DNA from: Methanomicrobia archaeon JdFR-19
Lineage (GTDB): Archaea; Halobacteriota; Methanosarcinia; DSM-18856; Methermicoccaceae
Assembly: GCA_002010075.1 (NCBI GenBank)
Contig: MTMG01000016.1
Location: forward strand, 62,137 to 126,136
DNA length: 64,000 nucleotides
Direction of reading: 5' to 3'
In this document: piece by piece, positions 5,798-53,455 of the stretch
Numbering within the stretch: the first letter of the stretch is position 1
Layout of the letters: the number at the start of each line of letters is the position of its first letter
The notes under the pieces: model-generated
Told to the model about the DNA's origin: nothing
Databases searched by the model: none
The model's input: the letters and a program-made list of their open reading frames with translations, nothing else
Translations under genes and position numbers: made by a program

Positions 5798-7108
5798 TTA
5801 TTTACTGATTGAGTGTAGAATTTCAAAATTGTATTTTGCTAATTTTTTAACTTCTGGCATTCTTTTTTTCAGATATTCTCTTATTCTGTCTCTGTTCTCC
5901 CATGCTAAGGAGACTTTCTCTATCATGTCCTGTGCGTTAGTGGGGTCACAGATATACGCCTCTATACCTACCAGTTTTGCAATACCACGTAGCTTGTGTG
6001 GTCTTGGTCCATTTCCATAGTCAATAATAACCGTTGGAATGCATTGGGATAATCCTGCAATGGCACCATGCAACCGTCCGCTAATCAAGAAATCACAACA
6101 TCCAATAATTGTTTTCATGGTTGCTGCATCGTAAAGTCCTTTGACCATAGTCAGTTCATCATCTTGGTACTGGTGATTTAGTAGGCTATAGAGCTGAGAG
6201 ATTATATGGTAATCACTTCCTGGGATTAAATTACCTTGGTCATCTGTTCTATTTTGATGGGCCATCAAAACAACCTTTACATCATAGTGTTCAAGTATAT
6301 GCCCTATCAAATCCACAAATGGTTTTAGTTCTTCATCGTCTCTTGGGACTTTAAAGAATGGTGGTTTAGGCATATTCCACCCACTTAATATGAAGCCTAC
6401 CAACGGTTTGGTTTTTGGGAGAATTCTTTCGTTTTTTAGGACATCCATTGCTTCCTCTTTTCTCTTTGCATCAAATAAAAAGGCAGGACAAGCAGTGGTT
6501 ACCATATGTGTGTTGGTGATTCCCATTTCTTGTAGCAACTCAGTGCTTAAAGGCTCTCTGTTTGTAATCAAGTCAACCCTATTGAGAACAAATTTTGCCA
6601 ACATTCTACGCCAAGTACTTCCAAATGGGCCTGGTGAACCAGCAAACATAACCACTGGTTTGCCCAAAATTTTCGCGAACAAAATCCTAGCACATCCCTC
6701 CAAGAACCTATTAAACTCTGAGTTATCTCCGTAAAGGTCTCCACTGAAATCTATAATCAAATCTGCCTCTTGCAGTTCATTAAGTAATACACTCTTTTTT
6801 AAGATGAAATTGAGATTTAAATGAAAAATATAATAGAAAAATGCCCACACCGAAATTTTTAGAATATCTACTGCAGTGGTTATTGCAGTTTTCACACCAT
6901 AAGTCCAGAAACGTTCGTCTCTTTTTGATTCAATGTTGAATTTTTTGCAAAAATCATCTGACATTTGGATGGATGTGGTTATCTCTGCATGAGGAAATTC
7001 TTTTTTTAAATATTTTATCAAGGGCTCCATGATTGCATAATTACCCAGATTATGGTACTCCATTGCTCCGAGTGATGTTGATGTTAGACCCATCACAAAA
7101 ATTTTCAT
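5798..7108 (-). CDS. polysaccharide pyruvyl transferase family protein
   Basis: The protein is about 436 residues. It begins MKIFVMGLTSTSLGAMEYHN, has DLIIDFSGDLYGDN in the middle and the C-terminal signature CDFLISGRLHGAIAGLSQC, as in CsaB/WcaK-type proteins that add a ketal pyruvate to sugars. The ATG at 7108 overlaps the TGA of the upstream gene, so it is preferred over the ATG at 7123. It is a cytoplasmic enzyme, probably acting on lipid-linked sugars before export. The stop is TAA. Confidence 0.82.
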   Translation of the reverse strand: MKIFVMGLTSTSLGAMEYHNLGNYAIMEPLIKYLKKEFPHAEITTSIQMSDDFCKKFNIESKRDERFWTYGVKTAITTAVDILKISVWAFFYYIFHLNLNFILKKSVLLNELQEADLIIDFSGDLYGDNSEFNRFLEGCARILFAKILGKPVVMFAGSPGPFGSTWRRMLAKFVLNRVDLITNREPLSTELLQEMGITNTHMVTTACPAFLFDAKRKEEAMDVLKNERILPKTKPLVGFILSGWNMPKPPFFKVPRDDEELKPFVDLIGHILEHYDVKVVLMAHQNRTDDQGNLIPGSDYHIISQLYSLLNHQYQDDELTMVKGLYDAATMKTIIGCCDFLISGRLHGAIAGLSQCIPTVIIDYGNGPRPHKLRGIAKLVGIEAYICDPTNAQDMIEKVSLAWENRDRIREYLKKRMPEVKKLAKYNFEILHSISK

Positions 7109-8115
7109 ATTTTCTTCATCCATTTCATTATCCCACTTTTTAACAACACCTTTATGAAACTATATGTAACATTCAACTTTTCCACCCCATAATATGGCAC
7201 TAATTTAGGATTAAAACCTGTTATGAACTCTGCCAGTTGGGGTGTATTCGCTGCCATTAGATTGACTTCTTTAAATCCTCTACTCTGCATATCCTGAAAT
7301 ACCTTATGCAAGAGCAGGGAATAAGCACCTGTTCTTCTGAGTTCTGGATGGGTTGCAGCAGACCATCTATAAACTTTTTTCCTGTCATAAACAAAAATCT
7401 CTGATGCAGCTATCTCTTCAGACTTTGTTTGTGCTACCCACATCTCTCCCTTTTCATTTTTCAGTACCATATCAAATACTTCTGCAAGGAATCTTTTGGT
7501 TGCAGGTGGGTTCAATCCTTGGCGTGAAAAAGTCATTTCAAATAATTCATAAAATGAATCTATATCTTCTGACTTTTCAATGATTATTTCGTTTTTTATT
7601 GCTTTGTTGATATTCCGTTTTACATCTCTGGAAATCTTATTTTCGAAATTGTCTAAACCCAGATAATATGTGTACAAGACTTTAGTATCCCAGCCATTCC
7701 AGATGAATGGTCTGACATCAACAAACTCAGGAGAGAAAGTTAATGATACACGATCAAGACCTTCAGAATCGAGTACATCACACAAAGAGCGTATAATATT
7801 ATGGTTTCTATGTTCCCGCATCCTTACTTTACTATCTGGTACCTCTACCAACACAACTCCACCATATGGCGTCATTTCACAAGTGGAGGATGCTACTTTT
7901 AAAAATCCTTTTTTGTGAAGGTATAAAGAACAACCTCCGATTAGTTGATTATTTTCAAAGAATCCATAGATTTTTAGTTTTTTATTTAATAGATTACTGC
8001 ATGTTGTTAGCCAGACACTGCTGTGAAATATTGTGCCGTATGGAGACTTCTCAACTATTTCGTCCCATTTTTCGTATTCATCCTTTTTTAATTCTCTAAT
8101 TTCTATCTCAGACAT
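7105..8115 (-). CDS. FemAB/GNAT-like acyltransferase
   Basis: The protein has 336 residues. The N-terminal GNAT-like half begins with the FHSSVWL motif near residue 30 common in FemAB relatives, and the C-terminal half has RWSAATHPELRRTGAYSLL resembling an acyl-carrier binding loop. FemAB-like proteins attach aminoacyl or acyl groups to glycans or peptidoglycan precursors. In an archaeon without murein the likely target is an amino sugar of the surface glycan (inference). Its ATG directly follows the TAA of the deacetylase gene after read-through. The stop is TGA. Confidence 0.78.
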   Translation of the reverse strand: MSEIEIRELKKDEYEKWDEIVEKSPYGTIFHSSVWLTTCSNLLNKKLKIYGFFENNQLIGGCSLYLHKKGFLKVASSTCEMTPYGGVVLVEVPDSKVRMREHRNHNIIRSLCDVLDSEGLDRVSLTFSPEFVDVRPFIWNGWDTKVLYTYYLGLDNFENKISRDVKRNINKAIKNEIIIEKSEDIDSFYELFEMTFSRQGLNPPATKRFLAEVFDMVLKNEKGEMWVAQTKSEEIAASEIFVYDRKKVYRWSAATHPELRRTGAYSLLLHKVFQDMQSRGFKEVNLMAANTPQLAEFITGFNPKLVPYYGVEKLNVTYSFIKVLLKSGIMKWMKKI

Positions 8116-9162
8116 TTATTTATCTCCTATCTACGTCCACCATTTGTAAATCTCTTCTCCACTCGTCATCCACGCTTCTTTTTCATGAGAATACTTCAAT
8201 ATCTTTTCATAAAACTTTAACATGTCTCCAAACATGTAGGTATTATGCCAGAGGATAGTGATAACTCCATTGTACCTTTCAACAGTGTCAATAAGTCGCT
8301 TGGTAATTTTCCATGCGTCTCCCACATTTAATTTCATATGCTCAAACAACGTACAGTCCATAATGACCAAAGGAATTTCGAGAATGTCAATCTATTTGTT
8401 TGTATGTAGGTTGAAGGGTTTAAAAGGATGGCACATCCCATTTCTAAATCCGACAGCATCTGCATAACCGAAAGTTGTATCATATTTAAAGCCAGCTTTT
8501 TCCAGAACAATCCAAGTATCTGGAACTTTGAATTTCAAGTAGTGGTTCCTATAACCGATTAATTTTTTACCTAACACCTTTTCCAGCCTTTTCTTCTTCT
8601 CTCTGACATCATCCAAGTTATTGTATGAATTGTGTCCACCATGCAGACCAACTTCCCATCCGTTATCTATTATGTATCCCAACTCGTTATCTAAATCTTC
8701 AACATTGAAATTGAAGTCCAAATCTCCTTCTTCCACTGTTAAGAAATAGAAACTCGACTTTGCACCATATTTCTCTTCAAGTTTCATGATATCTTTAAAA
8801 TTCCATAGATAATTCTATCTTTTTATGTTGCTGAGCAGAATTTTAAAAGCATTCTTGGTTTGACCACACCTCAAACTTCTGATGGCACAGTATATCGTAC
8901 TCGATTTGGAAGGATAGAGGGTATCAATATCGTGAGTCAGACAAACCGCAAATTTCTTGCCTTCTGGATACCCGACTTCTAAGCCGTTCTCCAATAGGAA
9001 TTTTGATACCTCTGGCTCTAAAACATTTTTATGCTTGCTAATACGATATGGGTATCTCTGATATCGATCTAAAATCGTTGGGTTGTACTCCTCTCGTTTC
9101 GTAAATAATTCCCAAAGCTCTTTATTTTGTTTCAACGTTTCAATCATCTGTAATACCTTCAT
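8116..9162 (-). CDS. polysaccharide deacetylase-like enzyme with three in-frame TAG codons
   Basis: Read through TAG codons 116 (8817-8815), 257 (8394-8392) and 344 (8133-8131), the frame gives 348 residues ending at TAA 8118-8116, immediately before the next ATG. All segments fit one NodB-like deacetylase. Metal-site motifs are THDID near residue 86 and HGGHNS near 160, and GYRNHYLKFKVPDTW is the later conserved strand. The ATG at 9162 overlaps the wecB stop (ATGA). Taken as ordinary stops the three TAGs would leave useless pieces, but no frameshift and no TAA/TGA interruption is present, so I treat it as one intact gene with TAG as sense. It probably deacetylates an N-acetyl sugar in this operon. 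Confidence 0.82.
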
Positions 9163-10214
9163 ATTAGCTTTAATATCTCTTTAATTCTCTCACTTGCCCC
9201 CCCATCCCCAAATATATCACTTTGTGGATTTTCAGGATTGAAATTCATACTCGTTTTCACTATCTTATCTTTATCTGTTCCCACCAATACGTTCCACTCC
9301 TCTTCCACCGTCTCAACCCATTCTGTATTGTTTCTTAGGGTTATACATGGTACTCTCAAAATGTAGGCTTCTTTCTGAACACCACCAGAATCTGTCAGAA
9401 TTAACTTTGCGTTCTTTTCCAGCATAAGCATATCCAGATATCCAACTGGTTTTATAACTTTGATTTCCCTTAAAGAGTCCCACAAACCGAATTTTTTCAA
9501 CATCTTTTCAGTTCTTGGATGGCATGGGAACACAACATTCCCGATTTCACAAAAAGCCTCAACTATGCTTTTCATTCTCTCAAAACTGTCAGTGTTCTCA
9601 GCCCTATGAATAGTCGCCAGATAATACTCCTTTGGTTTTATATCCAGTTCATCCAGAATCTTCGATTTCTTTTCTGCGACCTTTATACTCTCTCTGAGGG
9701 CATCAACCATCACATCTCCCACCATATACACTCCTTCAGTTATCCCTTCTCCCCTCAGGTTCTCAACCGCCTTCTCAGTCGGACAAAACAGATAATCTGA
9801 ACAGTGGTCGGTCAGAACCCTGTTTATCTCCTCTGGCATCTTCCTATCGTAAGACCTCAGACCCGCCTCAACATGCCCCACCTTTATATGTAATTTCACA
9901 GCCGCAAGAGCTCCAGCTAAAGTTGTATTGGTATCCCCATAAACCAAAACAACATCTGGTCTCTCCTTAAGAAGGACATCTTCTATTCTCTTTATCATTT
10001 CCCCCGTCTGATAACCATGTGTTCCAGACCCAACCCCCAGATGGTAATTCGGCTTTGGAATCCCAAGTTCATCAAAAAACATCTTATTCATTTCATAGGA
10101 ATAGTGTTGTCCAGTATGTATTATCACCTCGTCAAACTCTTTTCTCAGCTCTTTTGATAAAGGAGCGAGTTTTATGAAATTTGGCCTTGCTCCAACTATC
10201 GATGCTACTTTCAT
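9159..10214 (-). CDS. wecB: UDP-N-acetylglucosamine 2-epimerase (WecB/WbpI family)
   Basis: The protein has 351 residues, normal for the family. Recognisable motifs are VGARPNFIKLAPL at the N terminus, HTGQHYSYEMN, VYGDTNTTLAGALAA, HVEAGLRS, PEEINR, ATIHRAENTD and LTDSGGVQKEA. It interconverts UDP-GlcNAc-type and UDP-ManNAc-type sugars in the cytoplasm. With the Wbp-like genes at 25.8-29.5 kb it could alternatively act like WbpI on UDP-GlcNAc(3NAc)A. It lies in a minus-strand operon and overlaps the deacetylase start. The stop is TGA. Confidence 0.92.
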   Translation of the reverse strand: MKVASIVGARPNFIKLAPLSKELRKEFDEVIIHTGQHYSYEMNKMFFDELGIPKPNYHLGVGSGTHGYQTGEMIKRIEDVLLKERPDVVLVYGDTNTTLAGALAAVKLHIKVGHVEAGLRSYDRKMPEEINRVLTDHCSDYLFCPTEKAVENLRGEGITEGVYMVGDVMVDALRESIKVAEKKSKILDELDIKPKEYYLATIHRAENTDSFERMKSIVEAFCEIGNVVFPCHPRTEKMLKKFGLWDSLREIKVIKPVGYLDMLMLEKNAKLILTDSGGVQKEAYILRVPCITLRNNTEWVETVEEEWNVLVGTDKDKIVKTSMNFNPENPQSDIFGDGGASERIKEILKLI

Positions 10215-38790: not shown

Positions 38791-39513
38791 ATGGTTGAAA
38801 AAGTTGAGCCCCCCAAGGATTGGCCCCCCATTGTGGGAGAGTATTTTGTCGGGGATCCAAACTCATGCGTTGCAGTGACCACATTGGGTTCTCATCTTGG
38901 CAGTTTTCCTGTTGAGGTTGGTGCAGCAATCGCAGGTCCAACCAAAACAGAGAACATAGGTGTGGAGAGATTGATTGCCAACATCATATCAAATCCCAAC
39001 ATAAGATTTTTGATAGTGACAGGTTCTGAGGTCAAAGGACATCTAACCGGTGATGCAATCCTAAACATCCATAAGAATGGTGTTGAGAATCACAGAATAG
39101 TGAATGCACGAGGTGCTATTCCATACATTGAGAATCTACCCGATGAGGCGATTGAGAGATTCCAGAAACAAGTTGAAATAATAGATTTGATGAACACCGA
39201 GGACAAGGATAAGATAGCAAATGCAATTAAGGAGGCACTTGCAAAAGACCCCGGAGCGTATCCTGAGCCACCCATGGTGGTTGAACTTGCAGTAGAGGAG
39301 AAAGCCGAGGAGGAGGCATTTGAAGGATACAGACCTCTTGCAGCCGAACTAACCGACATCAAAGCAAGGATTGAGGAGATGGAGAGACAAATCGTTGAGT
39401 TGGGCATTCTTGAGAAGTATGCCGCTGGTGTGTATGCTGGAAGGATTGAAGGAGTCATGATAGGGCTTGTGATATCGCTTGTACTCCTCGGTCTCATAGT
39501 AGGAGGTGTGTGA
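38791..39513 (+). CDS. mtrA: tetrahydromethanopterin S-methyltransferase subunit A
   Basis: The protein has 240 residues. The cytoplasmic corrinoid-binding domain has GDPNSCVAVTTLGSHLG, IAGPTKTENIGVERLI and TGSEVKGHLTGDAILNIHKN, with candidate cobalt-ligand His residues, and a C-terminal anchor helix MIGLVISLVLLGLIVG. MtrA carries the methyl group between the MtrH site and coenzyme M. It starts directly after the mtrB stop. The stop is TGA. Confidence 0.96.
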   Translation: MVEKVEPPKDWPPIVGEYFVGDPNSCVAVTTLGSHLGSFPVEVGAAIAGPTKTENIGVERLIANIISNPNIRFLIVTGSEVKGHLTGDAILNIHKNGVENHRIVNARGAIPYIENLPDEAIERFQKQVEIIDLMNTEDKDKIANAIKEALAKDPGAYPEPPMVVELAVEEKAEEEAFEGYRPLAAELTDIKARIEEMERQIVELGILEKYAAGVYAGRIEGVMIGLVISLVLLGLIVGGV

Positions 39514-39514
39514 T

Positions 39515-39796
39515 ATGGATGAGGAGATGAACAAAGAGACTGGTAGTGAAGAGGCTGTTGGTGAGGAGAGTTATGTAACCGCTCCAGTCTCTGAGATAGG
39601 ACTTCCGAGTGTGGCTGATCCTCAACTTATGGGTCTGGACACAATCGTAGACAGGGCAAAATACAAAGCTCAACTGATTGCAAGGACAGAGAGATGGGTG
39701 TCTGCTGAGATGGCAACCGAGTCAATAGGTTTCTTCATAGGATTCTTAGCTGCGATGGTCTTCGTGTTAATACCAATAATCTATTGGGTGGTGTGA
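39515..39796 (+). CDS. mtrF: tetrahydromethanopterin S-methyltransferase subunit F
   Basis: The protein has 93 residues with an acidic N-terminal extension of about 25 residues, then SVADPQLMGLDTIVDRAKYK and one C-terminal helix (FFIGFLAAMVFVLIPIIYWV). Position between mtrA and mtrG and the MtrA-like GLDTIVDRAKYKAQLIART segment support MtrF. It is longer than the roughly 70 residues I expect. ATG 39515 follows the mtrA stop by one base. The stop is TGA. Confidence 0.9.
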   Translation: MDEEMNKETGSEEAVGEESYVTAPVSEIGLPSVADPQLMGLDTIVDRAKYKAQLIARTERWVSAEMATESIGFFIGFLAAMVFVLIPIIYWVV

Positions 39797-45950: not shown

Positions 45951-46025
45951 TCATAAGAGAAGTGTATTTATAACACCCCCCATAATTTGGAGTAGAATTT
46001 ATATTTGCAGGTTGAGGAGTCAGAA

Positions 46026-47309
46026 ATGAATGTTGTGATACAACCAGTGGAATGGCTTGAAGGAGAACTCACCCCACCTCCTTCAAAGAGCCACACTCAT
46101 CGGGCAGTGGTGTGTGGCTCCCTCTCAGAATATTGTGAGATAAAGAACGCTCTGGTATCAGAGGACACGAGTGCCACTATGGAAGCTGTAAAGGCACTTG
46201 GAGCCAGCATTCGTGTGGATGCAGGGGGCAACATCGCGATAGAGGGTGTGTGTGGTTCACTTTCCACTCCTGAGGATGTGATAGATGCAAAGAATTCTGG
46301 TACCACCCTTAGATTCATGATATCTCTCTGTTCACTTGCTCCTGGTTTGAGTGTGCTGACTGGTGATAACTCGTTGAGAAAGAGACCCAATGCCCCCCTC
46401 CTCTCTGCAATGGCACAGCTTGGAGCATTGACCTTCTCCACCAAGGGAGATGGTACCGCTCCGATTGTTGTTTTTGGTGGAGATTAGGGTATGAAAGGAG
46501 GGAGTTGTGAGATCGATGGGGGAATTAGCTCCCAGTTCATTTCTGCCCTTCTCATAGCATGTCCCTTGTGTGGCAAGCCATCTAAAATAAAAGTAAAGAA
46601 TCTAAAGTCATCCCCCTATGTGGACATGACGCTTGATATTCTGCAAAGATCTGGCATCGAGGTTCTCATCAAGAACAGCACATATGTTGTCCCTCCCTCT
46701 CAGACATTCAACCTATCCACATATACCGTTCCATCTGATTTCTCATCAGCTTCTTATATCTTAGCAGCTTCGTCTATACTCCCCTCTCGTGTGAGGTTAG
46801 TGGGAATGTTTCCATCTCTTCAAGCGGATGAAAAAATCGTTGATGTATTGAGAGAAATGGGTGCTGATGTTCATTGGGATCGTGAGAAAGGGATAGTTGA
46901 TGTAAAAGGGGGCAATAAGCTTAAAGGTGCAGTTGTGGATGTGTCTCAGTGTCCAGATTTGACACCAACTGTTGCCGCACTGGGTGTGCATGCAGAGGGC
47001 GTTACTGTTGTAGAAAATGCATCCCATGTACGTCTGAAAGAGACAGATAGAATTTAGGCGATGGCTTGTGAATTGTCAAAGATGGGCATCAGATGTGAAC
47101 AAGGGAAGGATTATTTAAAAGTATGGGGAGGAAAACCTAAATGGGCAAAGTTAAATGGGTGGAAAGACCATAGGATAGTGATGGCTCTCTCAGTAGCCTC
47201 TCTCACATGTGGTGCTGAAATTGAAGATGCGGAGGTGGTATCTGTGTCTTATCCATCTTTCTTTGATGACATGAGAAAACTTGGTGCAGACATCAAGGAG
47301 GTCAGATAA
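46026..47309 (+). CDS. aroA: 3-phosphoshikimate 1-carboxyvinyltransferase (EPSP synthase) with two in-frame TAG codons
   Basis: Reading TAG codons 154 (46485-46487) and 344 (47055-47057) as sense gives 427 residues, the normal size. Motifs run in order through all three pieces: PPPSKSHTHRAVV, NSGTTLRFMISL, DNSLRKRPNAPLLSAM, then after the first TAG EIDGGISSQFISALLIACPL, VPSDFSSASYIL, and HVRLKETDRI-TAG-AMACELSKMG, then KDHRIVMALSVA. The enzyme joins PEP to shikimate-3-phosphate for aromatic amino acids. GAGGAG precedes ATG 46026. TAATG overlap with the radical SAM gene supports the end. Confidence 0.93.
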
Positions 47310-52669: not shown

Positions 52670-53455
52670 ATGTTGATTGCTTCTCTTCTCAGAAAGTATG
52701 GGGTCTATATTTCGTCTAAAGACCAGTGTTTTCTTAATGACTCCAAAATTTTAAAGTGGATGGTGGATTATGCAGGGCTGAATGAAGATGATGTGGTGCT
52801 TGAAATTGGTGCAGGTCTTGGCACTCTAACGAGACTGTTGTGTGAAAGGGCAGGAAAGGTATATGCAATAGAAAAAGACCCGAGACTTTTTTAGATTTTA
52901 AAAGTTGAACTGAGAGAATTTGATAATCTTGAACTCATATATGGAGATGCCCTCAAGCTTGAATTACCAGATTTTGATGTTGTTGTGTCCAATCTTCCCT
53001 ATTCGATTTCAACTCCCATCACATTCAAACTTCTCGAAAGGTATTTTGAGAGAGGTATTCTGACGTATCAACTGGAATTTGCAAGAAGGCTTGTTGCAAA
53101 ACCAGGTACAAAGGACTACGGAAGATTGAGTGTTGCAGTTCAGCACTACTGTGATGTGAGGTTAATCAGAAAAATTCCAAGAGGAGCATTCTATCCAAAA
53201 CCATCGGTTGATTCAGGAGTGGTTGAATTGAAAAGAAGACAACACGAAGACGTAGATTAGAGGGTTTTTTCCAGATTTCTCGAATGTGCATTTAGAGAGA
53301 GGAGGAAGAAAATCAAAAATGCAATCTCTCGATGTCCAGAGTTTGCAATGTGTAAAATTCCCGAGGAGTTTGGTGAGAAAAGGGCTGAGGAGCTATCACC
53401 TAAGGACTTTGTCAAACTCTCAAGCATGATATCAGATTCTCTCAACAACAACTGA
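52670..53455 (+). CDS. ksgA: 16S rRNA dimethyladenosine transferase with two in-frame TAG codons
   Basis: Reading TAG codons 75 (52892-52894) and 197 (53258-53260) as sense gives 261 residues, normal for archaeal KsgA/Dim1. Motifs cross all three pieces: [105 protein letters not shown]-like [16 protein letters not shown], then [23 protein letters not shown]. It dimethylates two adenines near the 3' end of 16S rRNA. Conserved synteny with DUF655 supports it as the functional ksgA. It ends in TGA. Confidence 0.93.

Follow-up and report, generated by a model that had tools for sequence, protein, structure and literature searches.

Three in-frame TAG codons in a CE4-fold deacetylase gene of Methanomicrobia archaeon JdFR-19, a genome in which TAG appears to serve as a sense codon

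A genome-wide pyrrolysine code in archaea (the “Pyl code”), in which TAG is used as a sense codon, has reportedly been described by Kivenson et al. in Science in 2025. Methanomicrobia archaeon JdFR-19 resembles that system in its full pyl set, in the occurrence of TAG in many genes including core genes, and in the evolution of TAG as a sense codon; it differs in the splitting of PylS into PylSn and PylSc, and the evidence for it comes from sequence. JdFR-19 is a further case of the known archaeal code, one that carries many TAGs and offers an informative comparison of two species, and the deacetylase gene considered here is TAG-dense but ordinary for such a code. The amber use described for Methanosarcina and the Methanomassiliicoccales likewise involves Pyl machinery and in-frame TAGs in methylamine methyltransferases. 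There, however, TAG is still counted as the stop codon of ∼4–5% of genes in Methanosarcina and of 1.6% of those in Ca. M. alvus (range 1.6 to 5%), and the other predicted Pyl proteins are few, with 16 further ones in Ca. M. alvus (PMC4153887), whereas 103 of 484 gene models in JdFR-19 carry TAG.

The genome sample, which has a GC content of 0.434, comprised 504,000 of the 1,288,683 bases (39%) of an assembly of 27 contigs and included the 64,000-nucleotide stretch that holds the deacetylase gene (“the window”). PylB, PylC, PylD, separate PylSn and PylSc, and tRNA-Pyl(CUA) were found in this genome, and their genes are spread over three places (Table 1). PylS is fused in the Methanosarcinaceae, whereas JdFR-19 is named in a review (PMC9499178) as a relative of that family with PylSn and PylSc as two genes. 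The review considers pyrrolysine insertion to be in competition with release at UAG, with no obligate signal. The tRNA-Pyl gene, which adjoins pylSn and pylSc, is the only CUA tRNA gene in the stretches scanned (the window, L037 and L038). We infer that the residue inserted at UAG would be pyrrolysine and that read-through is efficient.

When TAG was translated as sense, 138 TAGs were counted in the 148,745 codons of the 484 models. Wrong upstream starts inflate this count (41 of the 138 lie in the first tenth of a model), and the 77 TAGs beyond the first fifth of a model amount to 0.65 per 1000 codons. NCBIfam matches crossed the TAGs in ten of ten chosen genes, among them those for AlaRS, ribonucleotide reductase (above cut-off for TIGR02504 and TIGR02506 only), PurA, Rrp41, ApgM, dehydroquinate synthase II and MttB, with Rad50 and a Rad3-like helicase scoring below their cut-offs; in the window, Pfam matches crossed the TAGs of AroA and KsgA. 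As a control, internal stops flanked by 30 or more codons both before and after were classed by whether both sides were coding-like. This was the case for 44 of 76 TAGs in JdFR-19, compared with 17 of 88 TAAs and 40 of 257 TGAs. The corresponding values for TAG were 44 of 61 in a second species of the genus (G001) and 7 of 35 in a genome with no PylS match above cut-off (G006); in two other PylS-bearing genomes, where numbers are small, they were 4 of 8 (G116) and 1 of 5 (G076). Under translation table 11, 24 of 342 long ORFs end in TAG; for 18 of these the next stop is at least 15 codons away, and ten of the 18 continue as coding sequence. Since not every such ORF has a coding-like extension, some termination at TAG is possible. 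Judged by these sequence patterns, TAG in JdFR-19 behaves as a sense codon.

Matches in G001 were obtained for 192 of the 484 models (median identity 94.7%), and those below 40% identity were excluded when TAG sites were compared. TAG was still TAG in G001 at 47 of 56 aligned positions, the others being CAG (3), GAG (2), TGG, TAT, AAG and AAT, and the stops of G001 within aligned regions were TAG in 52 cases, TAA in three and TGA in one. Retention of TAG (0.839) was close to that of the two lysine codons (0.820 and 0.821); at the level of the residue it ranked among the lowest of any codon, as would be anticipated for loosely constrained sites. TAG sites are thus kept and lost between the two species much like other codons. 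Where at least 60 codons followed the last internal TAG, 438 of 637 differences fell at third positions (0.69), as against 0.74 in TAG-free genes and 0.43 after TAA or TGA ends. In tails shorter than 60 codons the signal was weaker (21 of 37), and some late TAGs may therefore terminate. The alanyl-tRNA synthetase gene (L139, 14431–17139) has TAG at codon 184 where G001 has GAG, a recent change in an essential gene. The deacetylase had no match in G001, so its own TAG sites are outside this within-genus comparison.

Table 1. Features of the deacetylase locus and of TAG decoding in JdFR-19 (positions are those of the window unless a locus is named)
Feature	Position	Strand	Basis or remark
CE4-fold polysaccharide deacetylase gene, 348 codons, TAG as amino acid	8116..9162	-	Open frame; ∼60% identical homologs; pLDDT 92.8; CE4 structure matches
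In-frame TAG 1, codon 116, low-confidence loop 111–120	8815..8817	-	Homologs K, W, Y, H, Q
In-frame TAG 2, codon 257	8392..8394	-	Homologs mostly E or Q
In-frame TAG 3, codon 344, C-terminal tail	8131..8133	-	Gap in 59/78 homologs
THDID, codons 76–80; H77, D78, D80 invariant	8923..8937	-	Sequence and homolog columns
HGGHNS, codons 174–179; H174 sole invariant residue	8626..8643	-	Sequence and homolog columns
WecB-type UDP-GlcNAc 2-epimerase gene, upstream; overlaps deacetylase start (ATGA, 9159–9162)	9159..10214	-	TIGR00236 above cut-off
FemAB/GNAT-like acyltransferase gene, downstream; ATG (8113–8115) abuts deacetylase TAA (8116–8118)	7105..8115	-	Pfam and sequence
EPSP synthase (AroA), in-frame TAGs inside domain	45987..47309	+	Pfam; both internal TAGs kept in G001
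KsgA-type rRNA dimethylase, two in-frame TAGs	52670..53455	+	Pfam; both TAGs kept in G001
pylT-pylSn-pylSc	L038, 12999–14225
pylB-pylC	L037, 6155–8355
Lone pylD	L118

When TAG is read through, the deacetylase frame has no internal TAA, TGA or frameshift and ends in TAA; table 11 breaks it into ORFs of 115 and 131 amino acids, and the plus strand of the same interval has stops throughout. The initial annotation had described a polysaccharide deacetylase with three TAGs in 348 codons, the last of them five codons ahead of a TAA that touches the next ATG, and with the THDID and HGGHNS motifs on either side of the first; the sequence bears out each of these placements. A GGAG at 8124–8127, within the final deacetylase codons, precedes the acyltransferase gene, beyond which Pfam places a pyruvyl transferase, a GNAT protein, a methyltransferase and a flippase. 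Because of these neighbors and the epimerase and acyltransferase, the neighborhood looks like a surface-glycan operon, and the substrate is likely a nucleotide- or lipid-linked amino sugar. In the flanks retrieved for the 79 homologous loci, a FemAB relative was present at 39 and a WecB relative at ten.

The identification as a polysaccharide deacetylase holds through the fold. The closest deacetylase homologs, chiefly from Methanosarcina, are ∼60–64% identical. An alignment of 48 of the 79 loci with the window protein (49 sequences) was used for an AlphaFold model, which has a confident full-length fold (mean pLDDT 92.8), and a Foldseek search with this model returned CE4 deacetylase chains first (3rxz, 3qbu, 3s6o and ArnD 8t0j; for 3rxz_A, TM was 0.55 by query and 0.65 by target). 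The fold is shared with these CE4/NodB-fold enzymes over ∼300 columns (E from 3e-10 to 2e-7); the differences are an identity of only 12–17%, a sub-cut-off PF01522 score and an unconserved second histidine in motif 2. Against Pfam PF01522 the window protein scored 12.2 bits (gathering score 23.1), and an intact homolog was also below at 15 bits; against the VimE deacetylase model NF053580 it scored 127.5 bits (curated cut-off 440).

One of the 79 loci (L105) was dropped because the match length was not a multiple of three, leaving 78 homologs for comparison. H77, D78, D80, H174, R205, H207, D228 and H306 are identical in all 78. Both motifs had been described as metal-binding. In HGGHNS the first histidine is the sole invariant residue, the second (H177) being histidine in 35 of 78. 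D78, D80 and H174 are candidate residues of the metal site.

Columns conserved in at least 95% of the homologs were retained at all 13 positions in the segment ahead of the first TAG, at 33 of 34 in the segment up to the second and at all 18 in the segment up to the third. Past the first TAG this is 51 of 52, and the full-length protein is therefore under selection. Median identities for the three segments were 0.43, 0.59 and 0.58, similar to those of intact homologs compared likewise. The proposal that activity depends on read-through stands for at least the first two TAGs, which, as predicted from the sequence, must be passed for activity and an intact fold. Termination at the third could do little harm because only four residues follow it and these are poorly conserved. 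That the third TAG is an ancestral stop is not favored, as many homologs extend several residues beyond it.

The sites themselves are tolerant. The columns of codons 116 and 257 have entropy percentiles of 0.96 and 0.78, and in the model residue 257 belongs to a two-residue strand and residue 344 to the final helix. Codons that differ from TAG by a single step were found in the homologs in 43 of 78, 21 of 78 and 10 of 19 cases at sites 116, 257 and 344, respectively, as against 0.17 over all codons. Among the 78 aligned homologs an internal TAG occurs in one, and TAA or TGA in none. In the wider homolog list, two genomes (G097 and G080) each encode a homolog with a single TAG; in four others (G093, G100, G134 and G106) a near-full-length homolog contains a single TGA or TAA, and mixed stops occur in several short fragments.

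The gene had been said to have the highest TAG density in the window. This is so among well-supported genes (8.6 per 1000 codons, followed by KsgA at 7.7 and AroA at 6.8), but a 105-codon model at 39479–39796 is nominally denser; its two TAGs, at codons 7–8, probably precede the true start. Nominally the deacetylase ranks 15th of the 484 models, and three TAGs in 348 codons is moderately above the genome rate (Poisson P 0.0044; 0.0016 when the rate is computed from those TAGs that lie past the first 20% of each model). Eight of the 484 models have at least three TAGs, where 1.0 to 2.6 are expected. Low GC was considered as a cause of TAG density and rejected, there being no rise in the lowest GC fifth (TAGs per 1000 codons in ascending order of GC: 0.92, 1.13, 1.03, 1.00 and 0.58). 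When the 484 models are instead divided by codon signal, TAG is most frequent in the fifth with the weakest signal (1.55 per 1000 codons, versus 0.60–0.91 in the other four fifths), which may reflect avoidance in well-adapted genes or, in part, wrong starts.

We consider it highly probable that a single intact CE4-fold deacetylase, belonging to a surface-polysaccharide operon, is made from this gene by tRNA-Pyl inserting pyrrolysine at the three UAGs, with UAG a sense codon genome-wide and the three sites without a special role. In the proposed mechanism, tRNA-Pyl charged by PylSn/PylSc would decode UAG as pyrrolysine wherever it is present, and the deacetylase would be one among many genes so decoded. 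Ordinary substitutions at positions open to many residues would account for the three UAGs, which would play no special role in catalysis or control. An intact fold would need passage of the first and second TAGs, passage of the third being dispensable. Scarcity of pyrrolysine would lower the deacetylase together with all TAG genes, or about a fifth of genes.

The initial annotation had gone further, suggesting that the level of the deacetylase could depend on pyrrolysine supply. Scarce pyrrolysine would then mean less full-length enzyme, and the surface polysaccharide would be tied to methylamine growth. Three TAGs do exceed the mean rate, and methylamine use is likely, given the genes for MttB and for one MtmB that has a TAG in frame. 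These points are set against the spread of TAG over about a fifth of gene models, core genes among them, against the variability of the TAG positions (TAG is absent from 77 of 78 homologs), and against the eight models that hold at least three. Since core enzymes carry UAG, pyrrolysine must be made constantly, and a switch specific to the deacetylase is unsupported. RNA-structure control was also rejected: the RNA downstream of the three TAGs has unremarkable folding energies (z of −0.15, −0.49 and −1.28), and an Rfam search gave no PYLIS-type match, with one weak SNORD59 match outside the gene and far below cut-off. We regard such a gauge of pyrrolysine supply as improbable.

It is still less probable that the gene is decaying and its TAGs are genuine nonsense mutations. 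The weak codon signal before the first TAG (−0.6), the GC content of 0.361 and the near-full-length homologs with a TAA or TGA in four other genomes would suit decay, but every stop in the gene is a TAG, no frameshift is present, conserved columns beyond the first TAG are kept in all but one case, segment identities resemble those of intact homologs, and TAG is used as sense elsewhere in the genome. Decoding of UAG by another tRNA as a standard amino acid, e.g. Gln, Glu or Lys, is very improbable indeed, as the frequent Q, E or K opposite TAG in relatives is likewise predicted by one-step mutation, while the entire pyl set is kept and the only CUA tRNA in the window, L037 and L038 is tRNA-Pyl beside pylSn and pylSc.

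Searches of these two incomplete genomes gave no match to MCR alpha in either JdFR-19 or G001; for MCR beta and methanogenesis marker 10, JdFR-19 likewise had no match. Genes for MttB and MtmB are present despite the absent MCR matches, and HemBCD is reported as absent in JdFR-19 (PMC8351635). The lineage may use methylamines yet be non-methanogenic, within a class of methanogens. Three MtmB-family genes were noted (L164, L165 and L166), one with TAG and two without; the latter are possibly non-pyrrolysine methyltransferase homologs.

The practical consequence is that standard annotation would split the deacetylase and, by this sample, about a fifth of genes at TAG. The two species, with TAG sites both kept and changing, make the evolution of a 62nd sense codon measurable: its retention is akin to that of lysine codons, and its exchanges are with Q, E, K, W, Y and N codons. 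Tentatively, and with slightly more doubt than confidence, we suggest that in this genus UAG is constantly translated as pyrrolysine and essential proteins depend on it, in an archaeon seemingly without methyl-coenzyme M reductase; pyrrolysine would then be an indispensable amino acid that has persisted beyond methanogenesis. If it is true that the lineage lacks methanogenesis, an expanded code can outlast the energy metabolism to which it is tied in methanogens.
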